DNA of 64,000 bases from Crateriforma conspicua (GTDB taxonomy: Bacteria; Planctomycetota; Planctomycetia; Pirellulales; Pirellulaceae): positions 6,552,501 through 6,616,500 of the forward strand of contig NZ_CP036319.1 in assembly GCF_007752935.1 (NCBI RefSeq), read 5' to 3'. This document shows, one piece after another, positions 2,707 to 61,338 of the stretch. Both the position numbers and the translations under genes were made by a program. The notes beneath the pieces are model-generated. The model did no database searches, was not told where the DNA came from, and saw only the letters and a program-made list of their open reading frames with translations. Each line of letters starts with the position of its first letter. The first letter of the stretch is position 1.

Positions 2707-4302
2707 ATGAGTTCGACAGAAACCCGGCCGTCGTCAGCGGACGTTTCGGTCGCCGGAGAATTAACCGATCAGCGGATCTTGGTGCTGGATTTTGGATCCC
2801 AGTATGCCCAACTGATCGCGCGTCGCGTCCGCGAACAAAACGTTTACTGCCAGATCGTTCGCCACGATTTGACGGCCCAGCGAATCGCCGCCCTTCGCCC
2901 CAAAGGCATCATTTTGTCGGGCGGTCCGTCGAGTGTTTACCAAGACGGCGCCCCGCAATGTGATCCGGCGTTGTTCGACTTGGGCATCCCGGTGCTTGGC
3001 ATTTGTTACGGGATGCAATTGGCGTGTGCCGCACTGGGCGGCAAGGTCGACCACACGCCCAGCCGCGAATACGGCCGGGCGTCCTGCAACGTGCAGGTGT
3101 CGGATGGTCTGTTCGCCGGACTGCCCGAATCGATCGAAGTTTGGATGAGCCATGGCGATCAAGTCAGCGCGATCGCCGACGAATTCGAAACATTGGCGGC
3201 CACCTCGACCTGCCCGTTCGCCGCCATCCGTCACCGCAGCCGTCCGATCTTCGGCATGCAGTTTCACCCCGAAGTCACCCACACACCGCTGGGCAGCCAG
3301 ATCTTGCGGAACTTTGTCCGCGGCGTCTGCGGTTGCGAAGATTCGTGGCGTTTGTCCGACTTTGCCGACGAAGCGATCCAGCGGATCCGTGGAATTGTTG
3401 GCGATCGACGTGTGATTTGTGGGCTCAGCGGCGGCGTCGATTCCTCCGTCGTCGCGGCGCTCTTGTATCGTGCCATCGGCGATCAGTTGTCGTGCATCTT
3501 GATCGACAACGGATTGCTGCGGAAAAACGAACAGTCATTGGTGATCGACGAATTTTCCAATCACTTCCAAACCGACCTGCATGTGGTCGACGCCGAAGAT
3601 CGATTCCTGGCCGACTTGGCCGGCATCACCGAACCCCAAGAAAAACGTCGACGCATCGGCCACGCGTTCATTGAATGCTTCAAGGACGAAGCCGAAAAGA
3701 TTGAAAACGCCCACTTCCTGGCCCAGGGAACGCTGTACCCCGATGTCATTGAAAGTGGTGCCGACCCCGATGGTCCGGCGGCCACCATCAAACTGCATCA
3801 TAACGTCGGCGGTTTGCCGGACGAACTGGGATTCGAACTGATCGAACCGCTGCGTGACTTGTTCAAAGACGAAGTCAGGCGTCTGGGCTTGGAACTGGGG
3901 TTGCCCGAATCCTTGGTATGGCGACACCCTTTCCCCGGCCCCGGATTGGCTGTCCGTTGCCTGGGCGAAGTCACCCGAGACAAATTGGCGATCCTGCGGG
4001 AAGCCGATGCCATCGTCGTCCAGGAAATCCAAGACGCCGGGCTGTACCGAGAAACCAGCCAAGCGTTCGCCGTTCTGTTGCCCGTGCAAAGCGTCGGTGT
4101 GATGGGCGATGCCCGAACCTACGACCGCGCCGTCGCGGTGCGATGCGTCAACACGGACGATTTCATGACGGCCGACTGGAGCCACCTGCCGTACGATTTG
4201 CTGGCCAAGATCAGCACGCGAATCATCAACGAAGTCAAAGGCATCAATCGCGTTTGCTACGACATCAGCAGCAAGCCGCCGGCGACCATCGAATGGGAAT
4301 GA
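2707..4302 (+). CDS. guaA: GMP synthase (glutamine-hydrolysing)
   Basis: Converts XMP to GMP using ATP and glutamine, the last step of de novo GMP synthesis in the cytoplasm. The 531 residues match the usual bacterial length of about 525. The N-terminal class I glutamine amidotransferase domain shows nucleophile Cys100 in GICYGMQ and the partners His187 and Glu189 in QFHPEV. The ATP pyrophosphatase P-loop SGGVDSS lies at 241-247. The C-terminal dimerisation domain ends in the family-typical PPATIEWE. The ATG at 2707 fits the family start after a short Ser/Thr-rich extension. No weak catalytic site is seen. Confidence 0.98.
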
Positions 4303-4449
4303 TCACCGGCGCATCGCGGCGATCAACCTATCCAGGCAACCCCAACCGTTGATTCAAACGATCCAACGTCCGTGACCAAACCGATGTCACGTGTTTCATC
4401 CGATTCACCACTTTATTGTCGCTAGTAGCTCATCGCTTACAGCTTCCTT

Positions 4450-6129
4450 ATGGGTACACAGTTCATTTATCAGATCGAAGGTCTGACCAAAAAGCATGGC
4501 CAGCGAACCGTTCTGGACGACGTCCATTTGGCGTTCTATCCGGGTGCCAAGATCGGCGTCTTGGGTCCAAACGGCGCCGGTAAGTCAACGCTGTTGCGGA
4601 TCATGGCCGGCCAAGACAACGAATTCGATGGCACCGCGCGGTTGGGCAAAGGTTTCACCGCGGGCTATCTGCCGCAAGAACCACCGCTGAATCCGGACAA
4701 GAACGTCTTTGAAAACGTTCAAGAAGCGGTCGCCGAACGCCAGGCCATCTTGGATCGCTACAACGAAATCGGCGGTTTGCTGGGCGAAGTCACCGACGAC
4801 GACCAGATGCAAAAACTGTGCGATGAAATGGCGGTGCTGCAAGACACCATCGACACGCACAACTTGTGGGAACTGGACCGCCAGGTCGAAGTCGCGATGG
4901 AGGTCATGAACCTGCCGCCCAGTGACGCTGACGTGACCAAGTTGTCGGGCGGCGAGAAACGCCGTGTTGCGATCTGCCAATTGCTGATCCGCCAGCCCGA
5001 TCTGTTGTTGCTGGACGAACCGACCAACCACCTGGACGCCGAATCGGTGTTCTGGCTGGAACAACACTTGGCGAAATACCCCGGAACCGTCGTCGCGGTG
5101 ACGCACGACCGGTACTTCTTGGATAACGTGGCCCAGTGGATTCTGGAAATCGACCGCGGCAAGGGGATCCCGTTCGAGGGCAACTACACCGCATGGTTGG
5201 AGAACCGTGCCAAGCGGATGGCCTTGGAAGAACGTCAACAGAAGGCGCGGGAAAAAACGCTGTCTCGCGAACTGGAATGGATTCGCATGAGTCCGAAGGC
5301 TCGCCAAGCCAAAAGCAAGGCGCGGATCAAGTCGTACGAACAAATGGCTGCCCAAGCGTTCGAGGACCGTCCCGACGAACTGGAGATCCAGATCCCCGCC
5401 AGCCGACCGCTGGGCGAAGTCGTCATTGAAGCCAACAACATCAGCAAGGCGTTCGGCGACAAGGTCTTGATCAAAGACCTTACGTTCCGCTTGCCCCCGG
5501 GTGGCATCGTCGGCGTCATCGGACCCAACGGGGCGGGCAAAACGACCCTATTTCGCATGTTGACCGGTCAGGACGAACCCGACGACGGGGCAATCCGCGT
5601 GGGCGAAACCGTCGACTTGGGCTACGTCGATCAATCCCGTGACGCATTGGATCCCGACAAAACGGTGTATCAGGAAATCAGCGGCGGTTATGACAGCCTG
5701 GAAATGGGCGGCCGCCACCTGAATTCCCGTGCCTACGTTTCGCGTTTCAATTTCAAGAAGGCCGACCAAGAGAAAAAGGTCGGCACCCTGTCCGGCGGGG
5801 AACGCAATCGTGTGCACTTAGCCTCGTTGCTGCGAAAAGGTTGCAACGTGCTGTTGTTGGACGAACCGACCAATGACCTGGACGTCGACACCCTACGCGC
5901 CTTGGAGGAAGCGATCGCCAGTTTCGCCGGTTGTGTGGTGGTCACCAGCCACGACCGCTGGTTCCTGGATCGGCTTGCCACGCATATCCTGTCATTTGAA
6001 GGCGATGGCAACGTGACTTGGTTCGAAGGGAATTTTGACGACTACGAACGTAACCTCCGCGAACGACTGGGATCGGTCAGCGAAGAAGAATTCCGCAAGT
6101 CTCGCTACAAGAGCATCCACGCGACCTAA
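4450..6129 (+). CDS. ettA: EttA-type ABC-F ATPase (translational throttle)
   Basis: A soluble ABC-F protein of 559 residues with two nucleotide-binding domains and no membrane segments. The first has Walker [10 protein letters not shown] at 39-47, signature LSGGEKRR at 165-172 and Walker [13 protein letters not shown] at 185-196. The second has GPNGAGKTT at 358-366, LSGGERNR at 447-454 and [11 protein letters not shown] at 468-478. Between them is a charged P-site-tRNA-interaction-type linker (about 255-300, rich in Arg/Lys/Glu). In the known family EttA binds the ribosomal E site and couples early elongation to the ATP/ADP ratio. The C-terminus ends in KSIHAT without the long coiled coil of Uup. 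It lies 147 bp after guaA. Confidence 0.93.
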
Positions 6130-6531
6130 CGAAGTCTTGCCACCGCTTCGGCGCGACGGCCTCCCGATCGGACGTCGCCCGATTCCTGGTAATCGTGGGC
6201 GTTCCCTCGTGTTGCCACCAATTCGTGTTCCCCCAACGTCGGCGTTTCCGTGGGCGGGGGGACCCGTGAAGGCCGTTGTGATTCGAATGCCCCCCTTCGC
6301 CAACCGAAGACCAAACGCGGCGATGGGGCGGATCCGATCGACCGCGTTGGCAAATTTGGGGGGCAAAGCAAGTCGCATGACGTCGGCTTTCCACGTCACG
6401 GTCGGCCTGATCAGCGAAACACCTCGCCGGTGGCCCGATACACCTGGCATTGGCCGCCTGGCAAAGTCCGCCCGTCTCCCTTCCTTTCCCCAACACCTTT
6501 TCCCTACCCCTATCAATAACCCAAAGAAGTC
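6130..6531. other. 402-base gap between ettA and the Lys-rich gene
   Basis: No gene is supported in either strand. Frames that cross this gap are Arg/Pro-rich shadows with no family signature. A purine-rich AAAGAAG just before the ATG at 6532 may be its ribosome binding site. I see no clear terminator for ettA. Confidence 0.4.
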
Positions 6532-55886: not shown

Positions 55887-58325
55887 CTATCGCCGGATGT
55901 TCAGCAATTCGTCGATCAATTGCTGGCTGGTCGTGATCACCCGGCTGTTGCCCCGATACATCGTGCTGGCCAACACCAGATCGACCAAGTCTTTTCCGAT
56001 ATCGGTGTTGGACAGTTCCAACGCACCCCCGATGACCTTGCCGATCCCGTTTTCGCCGGGTGCCCCTTGGACGGGAAGCCCCGTGTTGATCCCTTCGGCG
56101 TACAGGTTCAGTCCCTTGGCCTCCAAACCGGCCGGGTTGGCAAAGCGAGCCAATTGCAATTGGCCCAGGTCCCGCGTGATCCCGTTGCTGAATACACCGC
56201 GGATCGTACCGTCTTCGCCGACCACAAAACTATTCAGCACCCCAGGTTCGCTACCGTCCTGCCGTGTCGCGGCCAACGAAGCCTCTTGGGTCGCCAAACC
56301 GGACACCAACGAAAAATCCATCTCAAACTGCAGTGGCGAAACACTGGGAACACCGTTCCGGCCGATGGCAATGGTCTCGTTGGTGGCATCGACAAAATTA
56401 CCGTTGCCATCGAACGTGATCAGCCCGGTACCGACGGCAATCTCCGTTCCATCGCCCGGTTGGTTTTCCGGGCTGTCGGCGTACCAGCGGTACACGGTCG
56501 ATTGATCGGTACGGCTTTCCAAGACGGCGGTCACACGCACGTTGATCGGAACCCCCAGTGAATCGTAAACGATGAAATCACTGGCGGCACTTTGGCCGAC
56601 CGCGTCTTGGGAGACACCGAACGCCAAGTTGGGTGTGGTCACGGTGCCGACCGAATCGGTGATCCGAAACGCACTGAGGTCAATGTCCAAGGCGTTTAGT
56701 TCACCGTTGTTACTGACGATTCGAATCGTGCCGTTGTTGATGTAGGCTCCCGGCGCCAGATCCGCGGATTCACCCGGGATATTGTTCTCGCTAAGCGGGA
56801 TCGGGTTCTGTGAATCAACTTGTGACGTTTGAATCCCTGACGAATCAACGACGAAATCCAAGAAGTCTTGAACGGTTGTCGTGTTGGTCACTTCGAAAGT
56901 CTGTTCGCCCAGTGATCGCCCACCTTTGCGGCCGCTGTAACTGAGCGTTCCTTCTTGGAAGACTTGTTCGTACGTCAAGCCATCACGCTTCAACACGTCG
57001 GTCAACAACGTGTTGCTGTTGATCGTCGGGCCGTCCATGTTCAACAACTGATTGCCGGCGGTGTCCAAGTCCGCGATCTGTGCATCGGTCTTGGTGTCCG
57101 TGTACGTTTCCCCCGGCGCGACGCTGTCGACCAAATAGAAGTTGTTTTGGTCACCGGCCAAGTTGCGATAGATCCGGATTTCATCATAGGCGGGAAAACC
57201 ACCCGACACCGGCGGCGTCGGTGGTACCGGAAAATCGTCCAACGTCAAACGACCATTGACCACGCTTTGCGGACCAATCAACACACTTGGTCGCGATTCG
57301 ACTTCACCGTTGCGGTGATACGTGATCATGTACGTGTAGTTGCCCGTCAGCGTTGAATCATCCAAGGCGTTGGCCGACAGCGCGGTTGTCCCGTCGTCGG
57401 TGAAGGTTCCGCCGGCGGTCGTCGTCCCCAGAAAGAAGAAATCGCTGCCGTCGGGTGACGTTCGATAGATGTTGACGTTGGGGTAATCGCCACCGGTGGA
57501 ATCCGTCGGCAGATTCGTCAGTTCGATGTTTCCTCCCACACCGACGGTCGCCGAAATCGCACCACTGGGCGTCGATTCGCGTCCGTTGGCGTCGACCAGG
57601 GCGACTCGGTACTGATACGTTCCTGGGGCAAGCGTCCCCACGCCGGCGGTGCTGACGCCGATCGACGAACTGTCGGAAAACGGCGCGGTGCTAAGCGATA
57701 CGCCCGACGCATCGGGACGTGGTGTTTGGGCGTCACCCAAAACCGCGCTTTCGATCACCTGGGCGGCGCTGGACACTTCACCTTCGGGGGTCAGCGTGCC
57801 CTCGAAGTTCACGATCTCGGTCGCTTTGGCAACACTTTCGGTTCCCAGCGGAACTTGCAGCGGCACCAAGCTGGATTTGTCCAAGCTGAACTGTTCGTCA
57901 ACGCCGTAGCCCAACAAACGCTGACCGGTTGCATTGACCAGTTCGGCATCACTGTTGAGCTTGAAGATCCCGTTTCGCGAATACAACGTTTCGCCGGCGT
58001 CGCCTTGGACAACGAAGAATCCATCGCCCTGGATCGCCAAGTCCGACGACGAACTGCTGATTTCGATCGTCCCCTGGTTGTGGTTCGCAGCGATTTCAGC
58101 GATCTGAACCCCCAAGCCAATCTGGCGTGGGTTGGTACCACCGTTGCTGCCGGTGGGGCTGGATCCCAGGGTCAACGTCTGCAGAAACTGGTCGGCAAAG
58201 ACGACATCGGATGATTTGAACCCAACCGTTTGTGCGTTGGCCAGGTTGTTACCGATCACGTCGATTTGAGTTTCCGCTGCACTTAATCCCGTCAGCGCAG
58301 TGGTCAAAGCGGATTGCAGACCCAT
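55887..58325 (-). CDS. flgE: Flagellar hook protein FlgE with inserted repeats
   Basis: 812 residues, about twice the E. coli length (402). The N-terminal rod signature is ALTGLSAAETQIDVIGNNLANAQTVGFKSSDVVF, followed by DLAIQGDGFFVVQGD. The C-terminal ALELSNTDIGKDLVDLVLASTMYRGNSRVITTSQQLIDELLNIR is classic. Between them lie two similar Ig/FN3-like inserts (about 231-313 and 326-412) plus a further domain to about 560. It forms the hook shaft outside the cell. It follows flgD by 101 bases and ends the flagellar block before proS. Confidence 0.95.
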   Translation of the reverse strand: MGLQSALTTALTGLSAAETQIDVIGNNLANAQTVGFKSSDVVFADQFLQTLTLGSSPTGSNGGTNPRQIGLGVQIAEIAANHNQGTIEISSSSSDLAIQGDGFFVVQGDAGETLYSRNGIFKLNSDAELVNATGQRLLGYGVDEQFSLDKSSLVPLQVPLGTESVAKATEIVNFEGTLTPEGEVSSAAQVIESAVLGDAQTPRPDASGVSLSTAPFSDSSSIGVSTAGVGTLAPGTYQYRVALVDANGRESTPSGAISATVGVGGNIELTNLPTDSTGGDYPNVNIYRTSPDGSDFFFLGTTTAGGTFTDDGTTALSANALDDSTLTGNYTYMITYHRNGEVESRPSVLIGPQSVVNGRLTLDDFPVPPTPPVSGGFPAYDEIRIYRNLAGDQNNFYLVDSVAPGETYTDTKTDAQIADLDTAGNQLLNMDGPTINSNTLLTDVLKRDGLTYEQVFQEGTLSYSGRKGGRSLGEQTFEVTNTTTVQDFLDFVVDSSGIQTSQVDSQNPIPLSENNIPGESADLAPGAYINNGTIRIVSNNGELNALDIDLSAFRITDSVGTVTTPNLAFGVSQDAVGQSAASDFIVYDSLGVPINVRVTAVLESRTDQSTVYRWYADSPENQPGDGTEIAVGTGLITFDGNGNFVDATNETIAIGRNGVPSVSPLQFEMDFSLVSGLATQEASLAATRQDGSEPGVLNSFVVGEDGTIRGVFSNGITRDLGQLQLARFANPAGLEAKGLNLYAEGINTGLPVQGAPGENGIGKVIGGALELSNTDIGKDLVDLVLASTMYRGNSRVITTSQQLIDELLNIRR
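57090..57635 (-). repeat. Two tandem Ig/FN3-like inserts inside flgE
   Basis: Residues 231-313 (GTYQYRVALVDANGRES, NVNIYRTSPDGSDFFFLG, GTFTDD) and 326-412 (GNYTYMITYHRNGEVES, EIRIYRNLAGDQNNFYLVD, ETYTDT) share the order of strands: G-x-Y-x-Y, I-Y-R, F-x-L, T-Y/F-T-D. They are about 83-87 residues each and quite diverged, so the duplication is old. Confidence 0.65.
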
Positions 58326-58426: not shown

Positions 58427-58873
58427 TCACCCAGTTTGAATTTCGCGAATGTTCTTTACATCCATCGTCCGTTCACCCACATGAACTTTGACCGAACGTG
58501 ATCCAGAATTCGGATCTGTTGAAACTGTGACGCGATCGACCGTGCCTTCGACGTCGGAAGTGTCATCGGCCAACCCCCGAACGGTCTGGCCGATCAAATT
58601 GCTAGCGGTCACCAATTCTTGGCTGTGTGAGAAATCGGACAGCGTTTCGCTCAGCGAGTCCGTCGCCCCGATTTCACGGATCAGCCCGATCTGCTGGATC
58701 ATTTCCGAATTGTCCATCGGATTCAGCGGATCCTGGTTTTGCAGTTCTTCCATCAGCAACGTCAGGAAGTCGGTACTGCCCATGTCGTTGAAGCTTTGGT
58801 CGGACCCGCCGAATTGGCCCGCCGCTTCGGCCGACGAAAAATCCGCGCCGCCGGTGCCTGAGATCGCTGACAT
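58427..58873 (-). CDS. flgD: Flagellar hook cap (hook assembly) protein FlgD
   Basis: 148 residues from ATG 58873. The FlgD core is clear: DMGSTDFLTLLMEELQNQDPLNPMDNSEMIQQIGLIREIGA, then LIGQTVRGL. FlgD caps the growing hook and is later replaced. It is shorter than E. coli FlgD (231) and lacks the C-terminal FN3/tudor part. The Gly/Ala-rich N-terminus is typical of export signals. It lies between fliK and flgE, the common order. Confidence 0.93.
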   Translation of the reverse strand: MSAISGTGGADFSSAEAAGQFGGSDQSFNDMGSTDFLTLLMEELQNQDPLNPMDNSEMIQQIGLIREIGATDSLSETLSDFSHSQELVTASNLIGQTVRGLADDTSDVEGTVDRVTVSTDPNSGSRSVKVHVGERTMDVKNIREIQTG

Positions 58874-59031: not shown

Positions 59032-60609
59032 TCAATGCCGAAAATCGATGCCGCCGCCCGGTGTCGCCGCGGTTGCGGGCGGTTTCGCAGGTGCGGCCCC
59101 GGAAACGGATGGGTTGGCCGGCGACGGTGCGGTTTCCCCACCCTGGTACCGACGACGGTGACGCCCGGCGTCTTGCTGCGATTCGTCCCTGGTTTGCTGG
59201 TGATCGTGGAAACCGTTTTCACCCTCCGCGGACGATTCCTGTTCGACGCTCAACCGATCCACTTGCATGCCCTGGGCTTCCAAACGCGTACGCAACTCGG
59301 GCAATTGTTGCCGCAGCATTTCCGCCGCAGTTTCCGAATCGGCGACCACCCGTGCCTGGATCTTCTTGTCACGGACCTGCATTTCCACCCGCACGCTGCC
59401 CAGTTCGGCGGGGGCCAGTTTCAAACGAATGCTGCCGCCTTCGCTGCCGAAGTGTTGAAACGCCTTGCTGACCCGCTGCACCAGCCGGGCGCGCGTCACA
59501 GCGTCAGCCGGATTTCGCGGTTGTGCTGACTTGGACTTCGATGCCGATGCGGTATCGCTTGCCCCTTTCGCCTGCTGGATCGATTCGGTGACCGAATCGA
59601 CTTTTCCGCTGGCGTTGCCACCGCGGGCAGCCGATTCGCTTGCCGCTTTGGACACTGCGGAAACGGCCGACGACGCGTTGGCCGCTGCAACGACCGGCCG
59701 CGTCTGGCCCGCTTCCACTTTGGTCACCGCTTCCGCAGATACCGTTGCCGCAGGTTCGCCGTCCGGAACGGGTGTGATCTTTGATGAACTGGGTGCCGCC
59801 GAGGATCCAGCGCCCGCGCCGTTTCCGACCGGTTCGCCCTGTGGTGCGGAGGATTCGGCACGCCGCTCCCTGGGATCGCGACGCCGCCGACCTTCACCGG
59901 CATCGGTTTGGGCCGCCGTCCAGGATTCAAAGTCGGCCGACGCCGGATCGTCGCCGGTGGTTGCTGATGGGTCATTGGTCGGGTTCGCCGCGACGGATTC
60001 GTCTTGACCACCCGCTGTGTCCAAGTCCGACTGGCCGGCGGACACCGGTGCATCGACTTGTTTCGTGTCAGACGCCTTGGACCGACGTCGCCCATAGCCT
60101 TCCGCCGCGACCACGGTTTCCGCTTCGACTTTGATTTCACCGGTGTTGGTTTCAGCTTGGGCGACTTCCGTCGCTTCGATCTCCGCCGCCTCGATCGTCA
60201 CGGCGTCGGCAGATTCCTGTTTCACGTCGACCGATTGTTCCGCCGGTCCGTGTTCGGTTTCCACCGCTGTCGTCCACTGGGCGGACGTTGCGTCGACGTC
60301 GGCATCGCCCGAAACAGTTTGTTTCTGCGTCGTTGATTCTGCAGACGAATCGTCGTTGGAATCGTTGTCGGACGAATCCGACGCTTCAGTGGGACCCAAA
60401 TCCGTCAGCGACGTGTCAGGTTCGCTGGTGGCGTCGGTCTGCTGGACCACGGGCTGCGCGACGGACATCGCGGCAAAGATTTCGGCGAACGGATCGACCA
60501 GCCCCGTTTCCGCGGTCAAACGATTCGCGTTCAAGACGGTCCTGGACCGACGTGAAACCGCCGACGACGACGCTTGGTGCGCCGCGTCGCTTTGTTGGAT
60601 CACCGACAT
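59032..60609 (-). CDS. fliK: Flagellar hook-length control protein FliK
   Basis: 525 residues. The C-terminal Flg_hook domain (about 385-465) reads LKLAPAELGSVRVEMQVRDKKIQARVVADSETAAEMLRQQLPELRTRLEAQGMQVDRL and would switch export specificity when the hook is long enough. Residues 1-380 are low complexity (Asp/Glu/Ser/Ala/Thr-rich), the disordered ruler part. A Gln/Arg-rich tail ends it. Gene order fliJ-motE-like-fliK-flgD-flgE is intact. A large gap (158 bases) precedes flgD. Confidence 0.92.
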   Translation of the reverse strand: MSVIQQSDAAHQASSSAVSRRSRTVLNANRLTAETGLVDPFAEIFAAMSVAQPVVQQTDATSEPDTSLTDLGPTEASDSSDNDSNDDSSAESTTQKQTVSGDADVDATSAQWTTAVETEHGPAEQSVDVKQESADAVTIEAAEIEATEVAQAETNTGEIKVEAETVVAAEGYGRRRSKASDTKQVDAPVSAGQSDLDTAGGQDESVAANPTNDPSATTGDDPASADFESWTAAQTDAGEGRRRRDPRERRAESSAPQGEPVGNGAGAGSSAAPSSSKITPVPDGEPAATVSAEAVTKVEAGQTRPVVAAANASSAVSAVSKAASESAARGGNASGKVDSVTESIQQAKGASDTASASKSKSAQPRNPADAVTRARLVQRVSKAFQHFGSEGGSIRLKLAPAELGSVRVEMQVRDKKIQARVVADSETAAEMLRQQLPELRTRLEAQGMQVDRLSVEQESSAEGENGFHDHQQTRDESQQDAGRHRRRYQGGETAPSPANPSVSGAAPAKPPATAATPGGGIDFRH

Positions 60610-60687: not shown

Positions 60688-61338
60688 TCAACGGCCGGCT
60701 TGTTCGATCGCAGTGGTCTCCGGCTGTCCGTCACCGATCCGACGAATGATCTCGTGAAGCTTATCTTTTTCGTCTTCGGTTTCGAACTCTGCCAATATCT
60801 CTGATCGTTTATCAATTGGCATGGCTTTAATGATACCGACGACCTCATCAATTTTCTCATCGTCATAAATTCTCAAAAGCTGGTCCTTTGCCGCGTCGGC
60901 TTCCAGCGATTGGATCGTCTGCTGACGTTCGATCGCCCCCTGATCTCGGATCCCCGCTTTGACCCGCGCGATTTCATCGTTGATCGATTGGATCCGTCCG
61001 TCGAACACCTGGGTTTCTTCCACCAGCACCGCCATTTGCTCGCTCAGTTCGTCGCGGGCACGCTTTTGGCTTCGCAATCGCAAGTCCATGTTCATGCCTT
61101 CCAGACGCCGGGCCTCCAAGATTTCTTCGAAATCAGGCTGTTCGCGTTCTTCCGCGTCACGCAAGATTTTTTGCAATCGGTTCCCACTGATATCAATGCC
61201 GTTCATCAACGCAACGACTTTCACGCCAGTTTCATGGCTGAGCGATCCGGTGGACGCGAAATAGCCCAACATGATCATCTGGGTGATGACCGTGCCGATG
61301 CAAAACGCCGTGAAGACGCGCAGGATCAATTTCATCAT
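60688..61338 (-). CDS. MotE-like membrane-anchored coiled-coil protein
   Basis: 216 residues from ATG 61338, which has GGAGG upstream. An N-terminal membrane segment (LILRVFTAFCIGTVITQMIMLGYFAST) leads to a long coiled coil (about 60-150, rich in Glu/Arg/Lys). The C-terminal part (YDDEKIDEVVGIIKAMPIDKRSEILAEFETEDEKDKLHEIIRRI) resembles the MgtE-N domain of MotE/flagellar chaperone-like proteins. In other bacteria MotE chaperones the stator partner MotC or others. Its place between fliJ and fliK supports a flagellar role. Confidence 0.75.
   Translation of the reverse strand: MMKLILRVFTAFCIGTVITQMIMLGYFASTGSLSHETGVKVVALMNGIDISGNRLQKILRDAEEREQPDFEEILEARRLEGMNMDLRLRSQKRARDELSEQMAVLVEETQVFDGRIQSINDEIARVKAGIRDQGAIERQQTIQSLEADAAKDQLLRIYDDEKIDEVVGIIKAMPIDKRSEILAEFETEDEKDKLHEIIRRIGDGQPETTAIEQAGR

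Follow-up and report, generated by a model that had tools for sequence, protein, structure and literature searches.

Hook proteins with accessory domains have been described in two bacterial groups. Extra FlgE domains in Campylobacter add contacts between subunits, and their deletion leaves only stubs in over 90% of cells (excerpts of PMC5097172), while a Salmonella FlgE given the Campylobacter extra domains still built flagella (excerpts of PMC5069557). Excerpts of both sources describe these domains, D3 and D4, as Epsilonproteobacterial and without PDB matches at that time. The Caulobacter hook is the wider one, at 245 versus 180 Å (excerpts of PMC5069557). An Ig-like protein that binds flagella is encoded on a plasmid and is not FlgE itself (excerpts of PMC6764697). 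Accessory FlgE domains are already known, whereas our search of the open-licence literature found no description of Ig-like domains in FlgE, such as the planctomycete pair reported here, and no structural paper on planctomycete hooks.

The window, a stretch of 64,000 nucleotides from Crateriforma conspicua (contig NZ_CP036319.1, positions 6,552,501 to 6,616,500), contains an ORF of 812 aa with an ATG start codon which, judged by its sequence, is the hook protein FlgE and is predicted to polymerise into the hook. It has the following features, together with its upstream neighbours:

55887-58325, minus strand: flgE, flagellar hook protein, 812 aa (Pfam, solved FlgE structures, model alignment)
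57030-57704, minus strand: insertion, residues about 208-432 (missing in the aligned FlgE of other planctomycetes)
57369-57686, minus strand: Ig-like domain A, residues 214-319 (profile match, predicted strands, phage virion matches)
57066-57362, minus strand: Ig-like domain B, residues about 322-420 (profile match, predicted strands)
56619-57029, minus strand: C-terminal piece of accessory domain D3, residues 433-569 (also present in planctomycete FlgE that lack the insert)
56247-56618, minus strand: C-terminal piece of D2, residues about 570-693 (Pfam, model alignment)
58427-58873, minus strand: flgD, hook cap, 148 aa, N-terminal region only (gene neighbourhood)
59032-60609, minus strand: fliK, hook-length control (gene neighbourhood)

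Four Pfam families (Flg_bb_rod, FlgE/F/G D1, FlgE_D2 at residues 565-691, and Flg_bbr_C) as well as TIGR03506 score above their cut-offs, and the FlgE equivalog models score below theirs. Residues 164-564 have no Pfam match, and solved hook proteins align by sequence with the two ends only, at residues 7-174 and about 568-811. The gene belongs to a hook gene cluster: on its strand, flgD and fliK come immediately upstream, then an ORF that matches no Pfam family, fliJ, fliI and fliH; its downstream neighbour encodes prolyl-tRNA synthetase. The ORF without a Pfam match, between fliJ and fliK, encodes 216 aa (window positions 60688-61338, minus strand). We also considered that FlgD might have lost its own Ig-like part as FlgE gained two, and rejected this since similarly short FlgD-like ORFs (lengths approximate, measured from stop to stop or from the first M) adjoin many insert-less planctomycete flgE genes.

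Alignment with eight insert-less planctomycete FlgE proteins of 559-581 aa showed one clean extra block at residues ~208-432, with the remainder collinear from end to end, residues 433-569 included. The insertion therefore spans 57030-57704, so that the original prediction, which put the inserts at 57090-57635 (residues 231-412), had the right location and a slightly narrow width. Within the block, the local alignment of residues 235-319 with residues 328-419 scores 86 (BLOSUM62), compared to a mean of 30.3 (sd 5.8) and a maximum of 66 in 1000 shuffles of the second copy. The insert is two diverged tandem copies, as had been proposed. The further proposal that FlgE has about twice the typical length holds relative to Salmonella (402-403 aa) but not relative to the planctomycete baseline: the suggested comparison across planctomycetes sets the Ig-bearing protein of 812 aa against about 560-585 aa for most of the insert-less FlgE fetched, and the Ig pair thus explains only about 225 residues.

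An AlphaFold model of the full chain, made with 29 sequences, has pLDDT values mostly of about 90 or more over residues 170-630; confidence is poor for residues 1-89, 731-749 and 769-812 (D0 and part of D1) in this single-chain model. Modelled alone, the tandem consists almost entirely of strands arranged in two beta-sandwiches (mean pLDDT 92.8, pTM 0.81). Copy A has seven predicted strands over residues 223-310 at a pLDDT of about 90. In copy B, related to it by sequence, the strands of at least three residues number five to six, and matches to solved folds are weak, with Z about 4 or less. The confident model, together with solved Ig-like phage domains that match copy A, supports the predicted Ig/FN3-like beta-sandwich for both copies, with the subtype of B only loosely placed because of its weak fold matches. 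Foldseek E-values for the tandem alone are weak, the best being 2.0e-3, and none falls below 1e-3; none of 23 domain copies matched a Pfam family at an E-value under 0.01, and no curated Ig/FN3 cut-off was reached. A latrotoxin domain matches the tandem at Z 7, which we take as a common beta-sandwich arrangement.

The reading that would have undone the original prediction, an ordinary D2/D3 fold for the insert, is rejected by the structure prediction. In the model, residues on either side of the insert make up a D1 and a D2 that align with those of solved hook proteins at Z 12-19, and the insert is missing from otherwise collinear FlgE proteins. D3, whose limits of about 187-207 plus 433-569 are approximate as they derive from alignment ranges, aligns weakly with flagellin 9au6 (Z 8.3) and Campylobacter FlgK 5xbj (Z 5.8). 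Read from alignment ranges and predicted strands, the Ig pair appears to be nested within D3, and D3 within D2.

The closest relatives of copy A among solved structures are found in phage particles. It matches the SPO1 capsid protein 9vel at Z 10.7-11.0 (rmsd 2.2 over 101 residues) and the crAss001 muzzle protein 7qok at Z 8.8-9.2. A profile of the 23 copies gives E-values of 8.5e-7 for 9vel, 8.2e-5 for a phage protein associated with virions, and 0.0016-0.0017 for major capsid proteins. Sequence profiles link the FlgE domains to Ig-like regions of four PHROG virion families at E up to 0.01, namely phrog_511 (18 of the 23 copies), phrog_19622 (11), phrog_752 (6) and phrog_8040 (5). Used as a single-sequence query (tblastn for phage), the tandem had no match at E 1e-3 among 50,697 records of phages and 72,556 of plasmids. 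The putative phage relation of the domain thus rests on profiles and folds, and the FlgE domains are not themselves virion parts, the gene sitting in a bacterial flagellar cluster. Searching the C. conspicua genome with the profile returned both FlgE copies plus one copy each in giant open frames of 6365, 6142 and 4980 aa (L138, L139 and L141), whose products are probably secreted. Pfam finds subtilase, GEVED, cadherin-like, Big_9, PPC and dockerin domains on 5893 aa of the 6365-aa frame, and only PPC, below its cut-off, on 4074 aa of the 4980-aa frame.

We tallied matches in 60 genomes, this one included, by reading the match rows. FlgE matched along the Ig-bearing query in 33 genomes and partially, at a contig end, in one; seven had only an FlgE of ~550 aa, six only weak or rod-type matches, and 13 none. 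A profile scan of 114 FlgE-type proteins, a set in which some genes occur twice, identical or nearly so, because two collections contributed, found two copies in 60 proteins, three in four, one in a single protein and none in 49. Of 80 flgE loci from one search, 73 were translated and seven with partial or short matches were omitted. All sampled FlgE of the Ig-bearing lineage (65 of the 114) carry the insert, and the domains are found alike in thermophiles (Thermogutta) and in marine Rhodopirellula. One record titled Nealsonbacteria (L061) falls in the Ig-bearing group; species names here are record titles, a few of which look misassigned.

FlgE-type open frames across the phylum sample range from about 500 to about 1191 aa. 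That every long planctomycete FlgE has this domain is rejected, since among 36 hand-picked genomes of the phylum, with long as well as short FlgE, the profile found only G262, which is the one from the same family, the other 35 lying outside it. The 1071-aa FlgE of L097 (at 3001-6213) has no Ig copy by profile. Other planctomycetes have long frames, from 900 up to about 1190 aa, that lack the domain and must carry other large hook inserts. In seven genomes of the same family (G009, G012, G015, G027, G029, G034 and G036; L035-L041), the sole FlgE is 543-551 aa long, belongs to a distant lineage and has no Ig domains; this may reflect a replaced or second type of flagellum. G019 has two flgE genes, encoding an 816-aa protein with two Ig domains and a 711-aa protein with a single B-type domain (L013, L042).

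A tree of FlgE cores, from which the insert had been removed, was built for 103 of the 114 proteins; dropped were near-duplicates, one row with stops, one without a start, and the odd long L097 and L116. All insert-less rows lie on one side of a single branch with a support of 99. If the root lies on the insert-less side, one gain suffices for the Ig insert, and the relatives appear to have kept the domains since a single ancient insertion. Three-copy proteins occur at two places, in a Blastopirellula group and in G039, and the one-copy protein is the second FlgE of G019. The seven ~550-aa proteins of the family are distant from the Ig-bearing group and branch among rows from outside the planctomycetes, with forks that are weak or open.

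The domain tree, which has few columns and a bootstrap that had not settled and omits 11 near-duplicate proteins, unites all last-position copies (51 B copies, three third copies and the single one) in one group with a support of 84/96. First and middle copies fall outside this group, and A does not form one clade, with 7 changes and with five of its rows on B's side of the root as drawn. The duplication thus seems older than the sampled radiation, with B constant and A duplicated or lost; on these trees, B is one old lineage that is always last in the tandem, and A evolves faster.

Mean identity to the query is 0.40 for A, 0.48 for B, 0.49 for residues 427-565, 0.60 for residues 566-700 and 0.67-0.70 for the ends. 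In seven close pairs, omega of the whole insert was 0.013-0.127 where defined (six of the seven), and dN of A was at least that of B in all seven. Judged from these substitution rates, the insert is under purifying selection in the measurable pairs, with A the faster copy, and does not follow an arms-race pattern. Invariant positions are Y239, E250, P273, Y287-R288 and D310 in A, and Y332, R345-P346, Y386-R387 and D410 in B. They are largely the same in the two copies, as expected of a fold signature, and show no binding-site pattern beyond it.

We favour a model in which the Ig pair acts as an outer reinforcement of the hook through added subunit contacts, by analogy with Campylobacter, and give it a probability of roughly 0.55. 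D0, D1 and D2 would form the hook tube as in other bacteria; D3 is predicted to interrupt D2, and the tandem to interrupt D3. By analogy with the positions of known FlgE inserts, D3 and the Ig pair would be displayed outside the D1-D2 tube, with B probably packing nearer to it and A outermost, and the extra contacts between subunits may make a thicker and stiffer hook that withstands flagellar torque. Reinforcement is favoured by the clean insertion, the confident beta-sandwiches, the intact D1 and D2, the one gain with full retention, the purifying selection and the constant last position of B. The same retention bears on whether the domains are neutral bulk, tolerated in an outward loop and kept because they fold well and do no harm. 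The phylum has FlgE proteins with one, two or three copies and others with no insert, indicating that a hook as such can be built without the domains; yet neutral bulk would be expected to be lost more often than domains kept in every sampled FlgE of the lineage at an omega as low as observed, and we regard this explanation as unlikely.

The surface-binding role to which the original prediction was drawn is possible, but it found no direct support. As an adhesive collar, the outermost Ig domain would bind polysaccharide or a surface, and the hook would catch the swimmer before it settles. Such a role could be read from the kinship of copy A with Ig-like domains on phage virions, from the same domain in giant ORFs, one of them with cadherin-like, GEVED and dockerin domains, and from the variable number and the faster evolution of A, the latter being compatible as well with a domain that hangs free or binds a ligand. 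We nevertheless consider it unlikely: the invariant positions are those of the fold, close pairs show no diversifying selection, and the domains are kept alike in Thermogutta and Rhodopirellula, very different habitats in which a general structural role fits better than a niche-specific adhesin. The lack of diversifying selection in close pairs also argues against an Ig layer that hides the hook from flagellum-binding phages or predators; the faster A and its changes in copy number would fit exposure, but such a shield seems highly improbable. A broader scenario, in which an ancestor of this planctomycete order took a virion-type Ig domain into FlgE via a phage or a giant secreted protein and then duplicated it, with the sheathed hooks of its descendants both braced and touching surfaces at settling, is a long shot that we rate below the collar and above the shield.

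The added FlgE domains have recognisable relatives, and one gain explains them on the tree. They are a case of one extracellular domain type that the flagellum has in common with phage particles and with giant proteins that are probably secreted. Natural FlgE proteins with one, two and three copies, together with their insert-less relatives, form a series with which the part of outer domains in stiffness, torque and attachment can be probed.

The insert-less planctomycete FlgE (Planctomycetaceae, Phycisphaerae) align throughout, D3 included, save for the insert, and have neither Ig-like domain nor a profile match. The phage virion domains (9vel, 7qok) share the profile match and the fold of copy A but are single domains, parts of virus particles and only 18-19% identical. 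The Campylobacter jejuni FlgE (5jxl, 5az4; 851 aa) likewise carries two extra domains between the halves of D2 with D0-D2 conserved, and whole-model alignments cover 286 residues over 85-773 with 5jxl and 271 over 95-767 with 5az4. With the tandem alone, no Campylobacter or Caulobacter FlgE was among the 50 structure matches listed, though such a relation may nonetheless exist. In the Caulobacter crescentus FlgE (5ay6), D2 is likewise extended at a similar position, but by one domain only and not by an Ig tandem. The planctomycete case is apparently independent of Campylobacter relatives and Caulobacter. In contrast to the D3 and D4 of C. jejuni, which are of another kind, the planctomycete extras are Ig-like, with relatives among phage domains, and sit within a further domain.
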